DNA from: an uncultured bacterium
Lineage (GTDB): Bacteria > Bacillota_I > Bacilli_A > RF39 > UBA660
DNA: 34,421 nt
Assembly (NCBI GenBank): GCA_949296705.1
Contig: CASFOW010000063.1
Location: 1 to 34,421 of the forward strand
Direction: 5' to 3'
The notes under the pieces: generated by a model
What the model saw: the letters and a program-made list of their open reading frames with translations, nothing else
Told to the model about the DNA's origin: nothing
Databases searched by the model: none
Translations under genes and position numbers: made by a program
In this document: positions 15,968 to 22,470 of the stretch, one piece after another
How the letters are laid out: each line of letters opens with the position of its first letter
Position numbering within the stretch: position 1 is the first letter of the stretch

Positions 15968-17092
15968 TTAATGATTTTCTTTGACAAAACGAGTAAATTT
16001 TTCTAGTTCTTTATCACTTAAATCGGTATCGGCAAGCATTTCGATTAATCGTTTTTGTTCTTTCGATAGTTTCTTTGGTGTAACTACTTTCAAGACGATA
16101 TACATGTCTCCTTTGCGATGGGTACTGTCGTTATGAATGCCTTTTCCTTTGATTCGTTGTTTATCACCACTTTCGCTACCAGACGGAACGGTTAGATTTA
16201 CATTTCCATATAGGGTTGGAATTTCTTTTTTACAGCCTAGAATCGCCTCTGTTAAAGTAAGTGGAACTTCTAGATAGATATCATCTTCATCTCGAACATA
16301 GAAGTCGTGGTCTTTAACGGTAAATTCGATGTATAAATCACCATTTGGCCCCCCATTTGCGCCAGCAGAACCTTTACCAGATAGACGAAGTCTGTTACCT
16401 GTATCGACTCCAGCAGGTACTTTAATCTCTAATTCTTTTTCTACTCTTATCTTTCCTGTACCGTTACATTCACTACATTTACGTTTGTAGCTTTTTCCTT
16501 TACCACCGCAGTGAGGGCAAGTAGTTTTCGATAAGAAACTACCAAAAATAGTATGCTGCTCACTAGTGATTGTACCGCTACCATGACAATGTTCACAAGT
16601 AGTTTCATCAAAACCACCTTTTCCATGACATTCATCACAGGTTTCTGTTACTTCTAATTCGATTTCTTTCTTTGTACCATAGACTGCTTCTTCGAACGTT
16701 AATGTCATTTTAACGAGAGAATCATTACCTTTGGTTGCTCGATTACCTCCTCTTCTTGAGCTTCCGCCAAAGCCACCGAAACCACCAAAGATATTATCAA
16801 AGATATCGTCATAGCTAAAACCTGAAAAATCAAAGCCACCGAAACCACCGCCAGATGCACCGGCACCACCTTGGAAGGCGGCATGACCAAATTGATCATA
16901 TTGTTTTCTTTTTGTCTCATCCGATAATACCGCATAGGCTTCCTGTACTTCTTTAAATTTTGCTTCGGCATCAGGTTCTTTACTAACATCCGGATGATAT
17001 TTCTTGGCTAGTTTTCGAAAAGCACTTTTGATTTCATCTTGAGATGCACTTTTTGATACACCTAGCACTTCATAATAATCTTTTTTATCCAT
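15968..17092 (-). CDS. dnaJ: Chaperone DnaJ (Hsp40)
   Basis: The 374-residue type I J-protein has a J domain (1-68) with HPD at 33-35 that stimulates DnaK ATPase. A Gly/Phe-rich linker follows (about 73-120, [15 protein letters not shown]). The zinc domain has four CxxCxGxG repeats ([32 protein letters not shown]; about 143-220), then C-terminal substrate-binding domains. It delivers unfolded protein to DnaK. It is the last gene of the operon, 16 bases after pepF, with its terminator directly downstream. Confidence 0.97.
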
Positions 17093-17108: not shown

Positions 17109-18902
17109 TTACTGATCTAGTTTTTGATAAGAAGAAATTAATTCCTTGAACATATCCATCGCTTTGGCGAAGACTTCTTCACCCGTAATGTCAACACCTG
17201 CTACTTTTAATTCTTCAACTGGATCCATACTATCTCCTGTTTTCAAGAACTTTAAGTAGTCAGCTACAGCATTTTCTTCATGAGATAAAATTCTATTTAC
17301 AATGTAAGAAGCAGCAATTAAACCAGTTGCATATTGATAAACGTAGAAGTTATAGTAAAAGTGGGGAACTCGTGCCCATTCATATTTAATTTCTTCGTTA
17401 ATGATTACATCTTTTCCAAAATAGAACTCGTTTAAGGCATAGTATTTTTCTGATAGAACATCACTAGTTAGGGTTTTCCCTTGTTCTACTTTATCATACA
17501 TAAACTCTTCAAATTCACTAAACATGGTTTGCCGAAAGATCGTTGCTTTAAATAACTCCATCATCTCACTTAAGATGAATTTTTTCTCATTATTGTCATT
17601 AGAATGCTCTAACATGTAGTAATTTAACAACATTTCATTTACAGTAGATGCAACTTCCGCAACAAATATTTTATAACTACTATATAAGTAAGAATTGTTT
17701 TTATTTGAATAGTAGGTATGCATCGAATGCCCTAGTTCATGGGCAAGAGTAGATACATCATGATACTTTCCTTGGAAGTTTAATAACATAAATGGTTTAG
17801 TGTCGTAAGAACCTGCGGAATAAGCTCCTCCTCGTTTTCCTTTGTTTGGATAAACATCGATCCATCTATCCTGAAAAGCTTTTTCAGCTATACTTTTATA
17901 TTCTTCTCCAAAGATAGAAATCACATCAAGAACAATTTTCTTAGCTTCCTCATAAGAGTATTCATGTTCATCCTGTGCTAAATTTACTCCCGCATCATAT
18001 AAGCAAAAATCATCTAGTTTTAATACCTCTTTCTTTAATTTAAAGTAGTCGTATAAAACATCGATATGCTTATGTACTTCTCTAATTAAAATATCGTAAA
18101 CAACAGGATTTACACGATTACATATTAGACTTGCTTCTTTACTGTTCGGGTATCCTCTTAGCTTGTTCTCCGTCACAATTTTAGAAACATTTCCCTGTAG
18201 GGCTTCTGCTAGAGACTGTTTATGTTCTTGATAGGCACGGTATAATGCTTGAAATGCATCACGTCGTACTCTTCTATCTTTACTTATAATATAATTTTGA
18301 TAAGTCTCATTATTAATTTCTACTTCTTTTTTCTGCTCATCCTTAATGGTATAGAACTTAATTTCCGCATTACGAAGAATACCAGCTATATTTTCTGAAG
18401 TATTTAAAGAATTAGAAAAAGCAGAAATTATTCGTTCTTCTTGTTCTGATAAGACATATTTTTTCTTCGCGAATAAGCGTTTAAACCATAAAGCATACTT
18501 TTCTAATTCACTATTTTCCTTTAGGTATTTTTGAATAATTTTTTCGTCTTGATGAAGTAATTCAGGAACAATAAAGGAAGTTTTTTCTAGATAATCAGTA
18601 TAAATATTCGTGATTTCTCCTTTTTGGCGATTAGCTTCGTCATTAGTTAAATCTTCATCATAACGGCGATAGGTATAAGTAAATAGCTTTTCAATTACTC
18701 GTTCTGTTTCAAAAGAAGTATCTAATACATAAAGTAAATTACTAGCTGATGCTAAGATTTTTCCTTTATAATTTTCTAGTTTGGTTGTATTTTCTTTTAC
18801 TAAATGAATATCTGTATCTAGTTTTTCTTTAGTTGAATAAATACTTTCTAAATCCCAAGTATCTTCTTTTTTTTGCTCACTTCTAGGTTTTATTTTTATC
18901 AT
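17109..18902 (-). CDS. pepF: Oligoendopeptidase F (M3 metallopeptidase)
   Basis: The 597-residue cytosolic zinc peptidase has HELGH at 388-392 (zinc ligands His388 and His392, catalytic Glu389) and a downstream glutamate (Glu416 in FVAEVAST) as third ligand. It cleaves short peptides of roughly 7-17 residues. It sits between dnaK and dnaJ, where these two are normally adjacent, and would be heat-induced with them. AGGAGA precedes the ATG, and a strong hairpin (18926-18955) separates it from dnaK. Confidence 0.93.
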   Translation of the reverse strand: MIKIKPRSEQKKEDTWDLESIYSTKEKLDTDIHLVKENTTKLENYKGKILASASNLLYVLDTSFETERVIEKLFTYTYRRYDEDLTNDEANRQKGEITNIYTDYLEKTSFIVPELLHQDEKIIQKYLKENSELEKYALWFKRLFAKKKYVLSEQEERIISAFSNSLNTSENIAGILRNAEIKFYTIKDEQKKEVEINNETYQNYIISKDRRVRRDAFQALYRAYQEHKQSLAEALQGNVSKIVTENKLRGYPNSKEASLICNRVNPVVYDILIREVHKHIDVLYDYFKLKKEVLKLDDFCLYDAGVNLAQDEHEYSYEEAKKIVLDVISIFGEEYKSIAEKAFQDRWIDVYPNKGKRGGAYSAGSYDTKPFMLLNFQGKYHDVSTLAHELGHSMHTYYSNKNNSYLYSSYKIFVAEVASTVNEMLLNYYMLEHSNDNNEKKFILSEMMELFKATIFRQTMFSEFEEFMYDKVEQGKTLTSDVLSEKYYALNEFYFGKDVIINEEIKYEWARVPHFYYNFYVYQYATGLIAASYIVNRILSHEENAVADYLKFLKTGDSMDPVEELKVAGVDITGEEVFAKAMDMFKELISSYQKLDQ

Positions 18903-18960: not shown

Positions 18961-20793
<1,833 letters not shown>

Positions 20794-21432
20794 CTAATCC
20801 TCTAATTTATTTACCTTTACTACAGCATGTTTGATGACTTTTTCTTTTAGCTTGTATCCTTTAATCAATACTTCTAAAACAATGCCATCTGGTTTTGTCT
20901 CATCTTTAGCTACCATCATCGCTTCCATATAATTTGGATCAAATGGATAATCCAAAGCTTCGATTTCGACTACACCATATTTATTTAAAATATTTTTAAA
21001 CTGAGTACTAGTCATCTCAATTCCTTTTTTGATTTTCATGGCTTCTTCGCTTTCACATTTTACTTGACTAGCTCGATCTAAATTTTCGATCATATCTAAT
21101 AGATCGACGATCAAATCTTGATTGGCAAATTTTAATAAATTGGCCACTTCTTCATCTTTACGTTTACGATAGTTAATACTATCGGCTTTACTAATCATTA
21201 ATTTTTCTTGAAGATCCATATTGGTAGCTTGGAGTTCTTGAATTAATTTTTTCGCATCTTCTAATTCATGATGTTCTTTATTACAGCACTTTTTATGTTT
21301 TTTATCTCGATGATTTTTTTCATGTTCACAGTGACAAGCATCTGTATCTTCTTGCATTTGATGGCTAGTTACTTCTTGCTCTGTTTTCTCCTCACTAACT
21401 TTAGCTTCTTCATTTATTGTTTCGTTTTTCAT
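20794..21432 (-). CDS. grpE: Nucleotide exchange factor GrpE with a His/Cys-rich N-terminus
   Basis: The 212-residue protein releases ADP from DnaK. The core is typical: a long helix (about 55-135, with ADSINYRKRKDEE), then EEAMKIKKGIEMT and a C-terminal beta domain ending KLKEKVIKHAVVKVNK. Residues 1-60 are a polar extension in which 33-55 hold Cys33, His34, Cys35, His37, His41, His46, Cys49, Cys50, His54 and His55. Bacterial GrpE usually has an acidic, disordered N-terminus without such a cluster. Metal binding is possible but unproven. It sits 12 bases after hrcA. Confidence 0.95.
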   Translation of the reverse strand: MKNETINEEAKVSEEKTEQEVTSHQMQEDTDACHCEHEKNHRDKKHKKCCNKEHHELEDAKKLIQELQATNMDLQEKLMISKADSINYRKRKDEEVANLLKFANQDLIVDLLDMIENLDRASQVKCESEEAMKIKKGIEMTSTQFKNILNKYGVVEIEALDYPFDPNYMEAMMVAKDETKPDGIVLEVLIKGYKLKEKVIKHAVVKVNKLED

Positions 21433-21444
21433 TCATCATCTTCC

Positions 21445-22428
21445 TTATTTTTCAATATTACTTTTGATATATTCTAGTAATGCTACTACTCGATCATAAT
21501 CCATTCGTTTCGGGCCGACAATCGCAATCGTTCCTTCTTCTTGTGGGGTATGATAGGTTGTTTTGATAATCGTTACGTCATCATCCAAGTTATTTTCTTT
21601 TCCAATATAGACTTTGATATCGTTATTATCTGTTTCAATATTGGCAAGTAAATTCTCATCATCTAATTTGGTTAATATTTCTTTAATTTTATCTACGTTG
21701 TTAAATTCTGGCTGTTTTAGCATATTATTTCTACCAACTACATCGACATTTTGATGAGAGAATTCTTGGAATACTTGGTAGAATGTATTATAGATAATTT
21801 CGTGTTCTTTTACGTATCTACCGATGATCGGCTTAATTTCGAACTCTAGCTTACTACTCACTTCGTCAATCGGTGTTCCAACAATTAAATCGTTAATTAA
21901 ACTTACTGTCTTTTTCACTTCTTCTAAGGAAACGTCTTTAATAGTTACTGTCTTATGTTCTACGTGACCTTTATCTGTGATAACGATAATAATCATATTT
22001 TCTTTATCTAAAGGCACAACATTGATTTCTTTTAATTGATTTTCGTGGGATGCTTTTCCTAAGACGATCGAAGTGTAATTCGTCATATCAGAAATCAACT
22101 GTAAACTTTTCTTTAGACAGTCAGATAACACCAAATTTTGGTTTTTGAAAATGATTTGAAGCTTGAGCATTTCTTCGCCGTTCATTTCTTTCGGCTGCAT
22201 CAAGTGATCAACGTAATATCTGTACCCTGCTTCGCTTGGAATTCTCCCTGATGAAGTATGGGTTTTTTCTAGTAATCCTAAGTTTTCTAATTCGACCATT
22301 TCGTTTCTAACTGTCGCACTAGAACACTTTAACTTTTTGCAGATTAGATTAGAACTTACAGGCTTGGCTAGCTCAATATACTTCATAACAATCAATTTCA
22401 AAATATTCTCTTGTCTTTTTGTAAGCAT
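21445..22428 (-). CDS. hrcA: Heat-inducible transcription repressor HrcA
   Basis: The protein has 327 residues from ATG 22428. The N-terminal winged helix (about 1-75) includes RQENILKLIVMKYIELAKPVSS, SSATVRNEMVELE and TSSGRIPSEAGYRYYVD, all diagnostic of HrcA. The rest is the GAF-like dimer domain. HrcA binds CIRCE repeats and blocks this operon until heat stress. The open frame starts at GTG 22437, but AAGG at proper distance favours ATG 22428. It heads the operon, giving feedback control. Confidence 0.96.
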   Translation of the reverse strand: MLTKRQENILKLIVMKYIELAKPVSSNLICKKLKCSSATVRNEMVELENLGLLEKTHTSSGRIPSEAGYRYYVDHLMQPKEMNGEEMLKLQIIFKNQNLVLSDCLKKSLQLISDMTNYTSIVLGKASHENQLKEINVVPLDKENMIIIVITDKGHVEHKTVTIKDVSLEEVKKTVSLINDLIVGTPIDEVSSKLEFEIKPIIGRYVKEHEIIYNTFYQVFQEFSHQNVDVVGRNNMLKQPEFNNVDKIKEILTKLDDENLLANIETDNNDIKVYIGKENNLDDDVTIIKTTYHTPQEEGTIAIVGPKRMDYDRVVALLEYIKSNIEK

Positions 22429-22443
22429 CACTTCCACTACCTT

Positions 22444-22470
22444 CTAGCACTACTATTTCTCAAGTGCTAA
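22444..22470 (-). promoter_or_regulatory. CIRCE element 1 (HrcA operator)
   Basis: CTAGCACTA-N9-AAGTGCTAA matches the CIRCE consensus TTAGCACTC-N9-GAGTGCTAA at 7 and 8 of 9 positions. It lies downstream of the -10 box, over the likely transcript start, just before the hrcA ribosome site. Confidence 0.92.

Follow-up and report, generated by a model that had tools for sequence, protein, structure and literature searches.

Does the accumulation of cysteines and histidines near the N-terminus of a bacterial GrpE, mostly within a segment predicted to be disordered, reflect chance, a switch acting on the partner DnaK, or a more general capacity to ligate metal? We addressed this question for the grpE gene of an uncultured bacterium, located in a stretch of 34,421 nucleotides (the window, i.e. 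the whole stretch of DNA that was analysed), with the following features.

20794..21432, minus strand: grpE, 212 residues from an ATG start, nucleotide exchange factor for DnaK
21289..21432, minus strand: N-terminal tail, residues 1-48, predicted to be disordered (AlphaFold2 pLDDT <50)
21268..21336, minus strand: Cys/His cluster, residues 33-55 (C33, H34, C35, H37, H41, H46, C49, C50, H54, H55)
21067..21285, minus strand: long stalk helix, residues 50-122, predicted by AlphaFold2 and assigned by DSSP, its first turns holding C50, H54 and H55
21445..22437, minus strand: hrcA, heat-shock repressor, upstream neighbour (Pfam HrcA, E = 1.1e-48)
22444..22470, no strand given: CIRCE-like inverted repeat (HrcA operator) with 3 mismatches, directly before hrcA, found by pattern search
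18961..20778, minus strand: dnaK, downstream neighbour (Pfam HSP70, E = 4e-248)
15968..17092, minus strand: dnaJ with the usual CxxCxGxG zinc fingers (Pfam DnaJ, DnaJ_C, DnaJ_CXXCXGXG)

The core of this GrpE is normal, in agreement with the preliminary description of the locus. The Pfam model PF01025 covers residues 51-209 with E = 3.4e-38 and 131 bits, above its curated cut-off of 25.8 (the best NCBIfam GrpE model reaches E = 5e-36, under the curated cut-offs of these models), and the solved GrpE structures 4ani (1.3e-24), 1dkg (4e-15) and 3a6m are matched. The AlphaFold2 monomer, built with 31 homologues and assigned using DSSP, is predicted to comprise helices 50-122 and 129-151 followed by beta strands 154-208 (beta wing), most blocks at pLDDT >=90, i.e. 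the long helix, helical region and beta wing of the GrpE fold. The genes are ordered hrcA-grpE-dnaK-(M3-peptidase-like gene)-dnaJ, all on the minus strand, and the CIRCE-like repeat before hrcA, a single pattern match against 0.02 expected by chance, makes heat-inducible expression of this operon, grpE included, plausible. The acidic C-terminus of DnaK is without a Cys/His cluster. The gene between dnaK and dnaJ (17109-18902, minus strand) is M3/oligoendopeptidase-F-like, named from its HELGH motif only.

The translation places all ten Cys and His exactly at the positions first named for residues 33-55. Together with H24 they form the complete set of the tail, 4 Cys and 7 His, and the remainder of the protein has just C126 and H202. 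The assignment of the cluster to a disordered tail holds for the residues up to 48 (pLDDT <50) but not for C50, H54 and H55, which are located within the predicted helix; the cluster thus extends from the end of the tail into the stalk, where it covers the first turns. Cys and His together account for 2.8% of residues (Cys 1.0%, His 1.8%) over 305 genes, 320 kb, of the window's genome, and the binomial probability of at least 10 of them in a given 23-mer is 2e-10. Among the 305 sampled genes the GrpE tail is the densest Cys+His 30-mer (10), followed by the DnaJ zinc finger (8). A proteome-wide habit of Cys/His-rich tails was also considered, and rejected in two genomes (G000, 305 genes; G046, 297 genes), in which no 30-mer is denser than that of the GrpE tail and few other proteins come close.

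The window's genome belongs to the same genus as Candidatus Scybalousia (record L043), class Bacilli, and probably to the uncultured gut order RF39; RF39 genera are named in PMC8035907, this one not among them. For comparison, we read GrpE from 14 members of the genus, from about 150 other genomes of the family (group code f1) and from 102 elsewhere. The genomes are mostly metagenome assemblies, and the family sample leans to nearer relatives, a bias partly corrected by 20 further genomes. Start codons were picked by ribosome-binding-site score, a choice on which the tail counts do not depend since the Cys sit well within the reading frame. Counting tails with at least 3 Cys (or 6 His), the family yields 79 of 166 genomes with a usable start, distributed over 51 of 117 genera; the 166 divide into 77 with at least 3 tail Cys, 2 with 0 Cys but 23-26 His, and 87 with neither. 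Conservation of the cluster among relatives, the lack of which was named at the outset as a refutation, is found in content, with at least 3 tail Cys in 13 of the 14 genus genomes (the exception being L014), but not in detail, exact positions being kept in the closest species only. Outside the family, 5 of 102 GrpEs reach 3-4 tail Cys (L202, L207, L210, L213 and L252). The tails of 168 family genomes contain 7.8% Cys and 4.6% His, compared to 0.5% and 1.0% in the GrpE core, a 15-fold enrichment of Cys, and tails outside the family contain 1.1% and 1.0%. On a tree of GrpE cores the tail state changes about 30 times, against 55 with shuffled labels, and well-supported branches alone force at least 10 changes, gains and losses being indistinguishable on this tree. 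Judged by this patchy distribution, the tail is recurrent and dispensable, and since about half of the family genomes are without it, it is not essential.

What, then, is kept? The sequence itself is not, and across genera the tail displays no positional conservation. The window GrpE shares 9 of its 11 tail Cys/His with L002 and L003, compared to 23-24 of the 44 other tail residues, and 4 of the 11 with L004. Within the family, the number of tail Cys extends from 4 up to 23-25 in about 90-110 residues (L166, L080), with a maximum of 25 in about 108 residues (G091). Across these tails, CxC pairs are observed 223 times, compared to 75 +- 7 when the tails are shuffled and 111 +- 7 when shuffling is restricted to the Cys span, and Cys pairs at distance 6 occur 172 times (69 and 99, respectively), while CC (35 observed; 77 and 114) and CxxC (18 observed; 73 and 108) are depleted; the z-scores of these spacings overstate independence, as the tail sequences are related. 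Both CxC and CxCxxxCxC reappear in distant genera, the residues in between being different. Hence, a putative metal-ligand content and a spacing grammar persist rather than a sequence, and the spacing is that of a metallothionein-type arrangement, not of a zinc ribbon or a dithiol switch. Together with the density in the bacterium's own genome and the enrichment in the family, this non-random spacing leads us to reject chance composition.

The identity of the candidate ligands may also be exchanged. His-only or mixed repeat tails are present in L092, L176, L168, L187 and L175. L092 and L176, with 23 and 26 His and 0 Cys, are located inside a clade of Cys-tailed genera, and the mixed tail of L175 (5 Cys and 18 His) adjoins the His-only lineage on the tree. 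This arrangement suggests that ligand capacity is kept, not thiol chemistry. The initial proposal that the cluster could ligate metal is thereby well supported, if indirectly, through family-wide recurrence, CxC and CxCxxxCxC spacing and Cys-His interchange. The GrpE tails of L168 (G062) and L187 (G195) consist of three near-identical repeats of 12-16 residues (CNCKHEHHQHHD-like), suggestive of recent tandem expansion.

The arrays extend beyond GrpE, which is their commonest host in this analysis. We searched the family using the most Cys-rich GrpE tail as query and, at the DNA level, patterns describing repeated CxCxxxCxC. Similar arrays are carried by histidyl-tRNA synthetase (HisRS) at its C-terminus in many genera, in some cases with CxC repeats of up to about 16 Cys (L345). 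The HisRS of the window's own genome (TIGR00442, 480 bits; L365:1417-2763:-; G000:C37:6592-7854) has a Cys/His-rich end, ...LATFEEENNECDCDCDCDDCNHEHHHNER, also quoted as ...EEENNECDCDCDCDDCNHEHHHNER and ECDCDCDCDDCNHEHHHNER. Arrays are similarly found at the C-terminus of a small ferredoxin (L338, L376 and L377; Fer4 E = 1e-11) and of the aldolase DeoC (L378, E = 2e-15), in an internal loop of a DUF1292 protein (L316, E = 1e-9) and at the end of a RelB/DinJ-like antitoxin (L323, TIGR02384, sub-threshold). One genome (L380, G098) encodes a free CxC-rich protein of 61 residues in an open reading frame of 66 codons, and its GrpE is untailed; the protein gave no Pfam or NCBIfam match and was not found in phage records. 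The strict pattern, which as with all our pattern searches catches only the longest arrays, is present in 11 of 145 family genomes, against 2 convincing proteins in 172 other Bacilli genomes. With a looser pattern, many matches turned out to be reverse-strand readings of collagen-like or other repeats; these were dropped after frame reading, and the stricter pattern removed most of them. HisRS tails, read in about 50 genomes, are present in 13 of 16 GrpE-tailed and 12 of 26 untailed genomes (Fisher p = 0.05, uncorrected for kinship), i.e. the two tails are weakly positively associated, with too few independent pairs for a tree-aware test, and a strict either/or between the GrpE tail and another host was not found. 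The tail is not linked to heavy-metal HMA domains, matches to which are about as frequent in tailed genomes (25 of 48) as in untailed ones (33 of 64; p = 1).

Based on these comparisons, we propose that the GrpE tail is probably a metallothionein-like metal-ligand array, with GrpE as one of several carriers, which would most likely buffer or sequester Zn or Cu. Arrays on functionally unrelated proteins favour such a generic role over a switch specific to DnaK. Metal binding, the identity of the metal and the buffering function are what we infer from the presence, enrichment, spacing, recurrence and interchange of the residues, the several hosts and the predicted disorder. The disordered Cys/His array would ligate soft or borderline metal ions through CxC and His, most likely Zn(II) or Cu(I), possibly Ni(II) or Cd(II). 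Such arrays would be carried by several abundant soluble proteins of the family, GrpE among them, and the main work of the tail would be metal buffering or sequestration in lineages in which we detected no classical prokaryotic metallothionein. Dimerisation of GrpE would place the two tails next to each other at the N-terminal tips of the stalk helices, so that a cluster might be shared between them, and under heat or proteotoxic, including metal, stress the amount of protein would rise through the hrcA operon. Weighing against this reading are the patchy distribution in the family, the missing association with HMA proteins and the window tail, which is far less thionein-like than the extreme ones. 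For the family as a whole, we give an even chance to the broader proposal of a distributed metallothionein system, in which the metal buffer of these gut Bacilli would consist of CxC/His arrays in disordered termini or loops of abundant housekeeping proteins, namely at the N-terminus of GrpE, at the C-terminus of HisRS and on ferredoxin, DeoC and DUF1292. Both the host and the type of ligand (Cys or His) would have been swapped repeatedly, and the arrays would take the place of a single dedicated protein.

The likeness to metallothioneins of the SmtA/BmtA type (PF02069) and to the CxC-rich eukaryotic ones lies in short Cys-rich CxC repeats with few hydrophobic residues, and bacterial metallothioneins also use His (PMC10612145). 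In contrast, the GrpE arrays are without the aromatic zinc-finger fold, have CxCxxxCxC instead of CxxC and form the tail of another protein. A search of 117 family genomes for PF02069 gave 0 hits, with a control detected in Synechococcus, and the model matched none of five GrpE tails, that of the window included. The putative array is hence outside PF02069 by formal test and metallothionein-like in arrangement only. One GrpE tail gave weak sub-cut-off Pfam matches to the eukaryotic models Metallothio_PEC, _5 and _2. High Cys content, CxC and low hydrophobicity, which define metallothioneins in the broad sense, are combined in the family tails and weakly so in the window tail, which with 4 Cys and one CxC is far below its extreme relatives.

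The alternative that retains most weight is a regulatory switch, as envisaged when a link of DnaK nucleotide exchange to metal or redox state was first suggested. Here, metal would order or cross-link the two GrpE tails, e.g. via C49, C50, H54 and H55 at the stalk tip, and alter substrate or ADP release by DnaK, so that chaperone cycling tracks zinc or copper. The cluster of the window reaches into the predicted first part of the stalk helix, the element that pairs upon dimerisation, GrpE is the most frequent array host, and truncation of the E. coli GrpE N-terminus lowers the stimulation of substrate release (PMC12987570). However, arrays on HisRS, DeoC, ferredoxin, RidA and DUF1292 proteins cannot act on DnaK, a similar array also exists as a free small protein, the cluster lies well ahead of the helix in most relatives, and the tail is unresolved in bacterial GrpE-DnaK structures (PMC12987570). 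Moreover, sister species and genera do without the tail, L014 within the genus among them, and the coupling would need to be dispensable. We regard this reading as unlikely, and a specific metal or redox switch on DnaK as possible but not indicated. Were it to operate, it would be above all in the window GrpE, whose C49, C50, H54 and H55 are located where the dimer chains meet.

A thiol redox switch or buffer, in which disulphides formed under oxidative stress would cross-link or protect GrpE, is less likely still. It could draw on the many Cys beside the dimer axis, with C50 of the window at the predicted start of the stalk helix, and on the precedent proposed for Cys87 of human GRPEL2, a mitochondrial GrpE with a functional Cys suggested to sense the chemical state (PMC12987570). 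That residue, however, is a single stalk Cys working through a disulphide and unconserved beyond primates and rodents (PMC12987570), while the GrpE tail is a predicted disordered Cys/His array. Family tails are poor in the usual disulphide motifs CC and CxxC, some have no Cys, two lineages are His-only and many His-heavy, and His forms no disulphides; the His-only tails and the depletion of CC and CxxC speak against a pure disulphide switch.

Delivery of nickel or another metal, i.e. storage in the tail and handover to one particular enzyme, the role that H. pylori HspA plays towards hydrogenase, appears similarly improbable. HspA, a GroES with a His/Cys-rich extension, binds nickel in vitro, and loss of the extension lowers cell nickel and increases nickel sensitivity (PMC3856676). 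It is the nearest functional precedent for the GrpE tail, which likewise represents a His/Cys-rich, predicted disordered extension on a (co-)chaperone, and it sets an example of a chaperone cofactor that stores or sequesters metal (PMC3856676). The HspA extension, however, is C-terminal on GroES, restricted to one genus and tied to nickel enzymes, whereas the GrpE tails are N-terminal on an Hsp70 exchange factor, occur in at least 51 genera, follow a CxC grammar and have counterparts on several other hosts. The terminal stretch of the folding factor SlyD is His/Cys-rich. SlyD binds nickel (cited in PMC3856676) and resembles GrpE in being a housekeeping folding factor with a nickel-binding terminal stretch, but it is a prolyl isomerase with a dedicated partner, HypB, in hydrogenase maturation. 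The His-rich tails of L092 and L176 do resemble known nickel-binding His-rich tails; most tails, however, are CxC-dominated, favouring Cu(I), Zn(II) or Cd(II), and the hosts are too varied for a dedicated route.

Least likely of all is neutral low-complexity drift, i.e. repeat slippage in an unconstrained tail with Cys and His codons by accident, because despite the fast turnover, the tandem repeats in L168 and L187, the patchy presence and the missing positional conservation across genera, Cys is raised 15 times over the core, CxC is enriched with CC and CxxC depleted, a similar grammar recurs on unrelated proteins and mostly within one family, and the nearest species retain Cys/His better than other tail residues.

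If the metallothionein-like reading is correct, it would describe a new evolutionary path to metal buffering, namely repeat growth in disordered tails, and would be a sign of metal stress, hitherto unrecognised, on small-genome gut Bacilli. A metallothionein function spread over housekeeping tails would escape annotation, as domain models display only the host, such as GrpE or HisRS. Little is understood of the disordered GrpE N-terminus, which structural studies often truncate, and a lineage that repeatedly turns it into a metal-ligand array would provide a natural test of its importance to DnaK. In a 2025 GrpE review, which does not contain the word metal, the N-terminus is characterised as disordered and variable and as a possible pseudo-substrate (PMC12987570). 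Cys/His-array tails on GrpE and other household proteins seem not to have been described before, as our search of the open-access literature, which is no proof of absence, did not return any publication on Cys-rich tails of GrpE or HisRS.

The array habit may be wider among Bacilli than one family. The two convincing cases outside the family are a RidA (L411) and a DUF1292 protein (L414), both with CxC/His tails. Another family of Bacilli, group f11 (L200, L202, L204, L207, L209 and L210), has GrpE tails with a CC motif (STCCQE) or with SCCGG...CGCHH, which are perhaps of independent origin.
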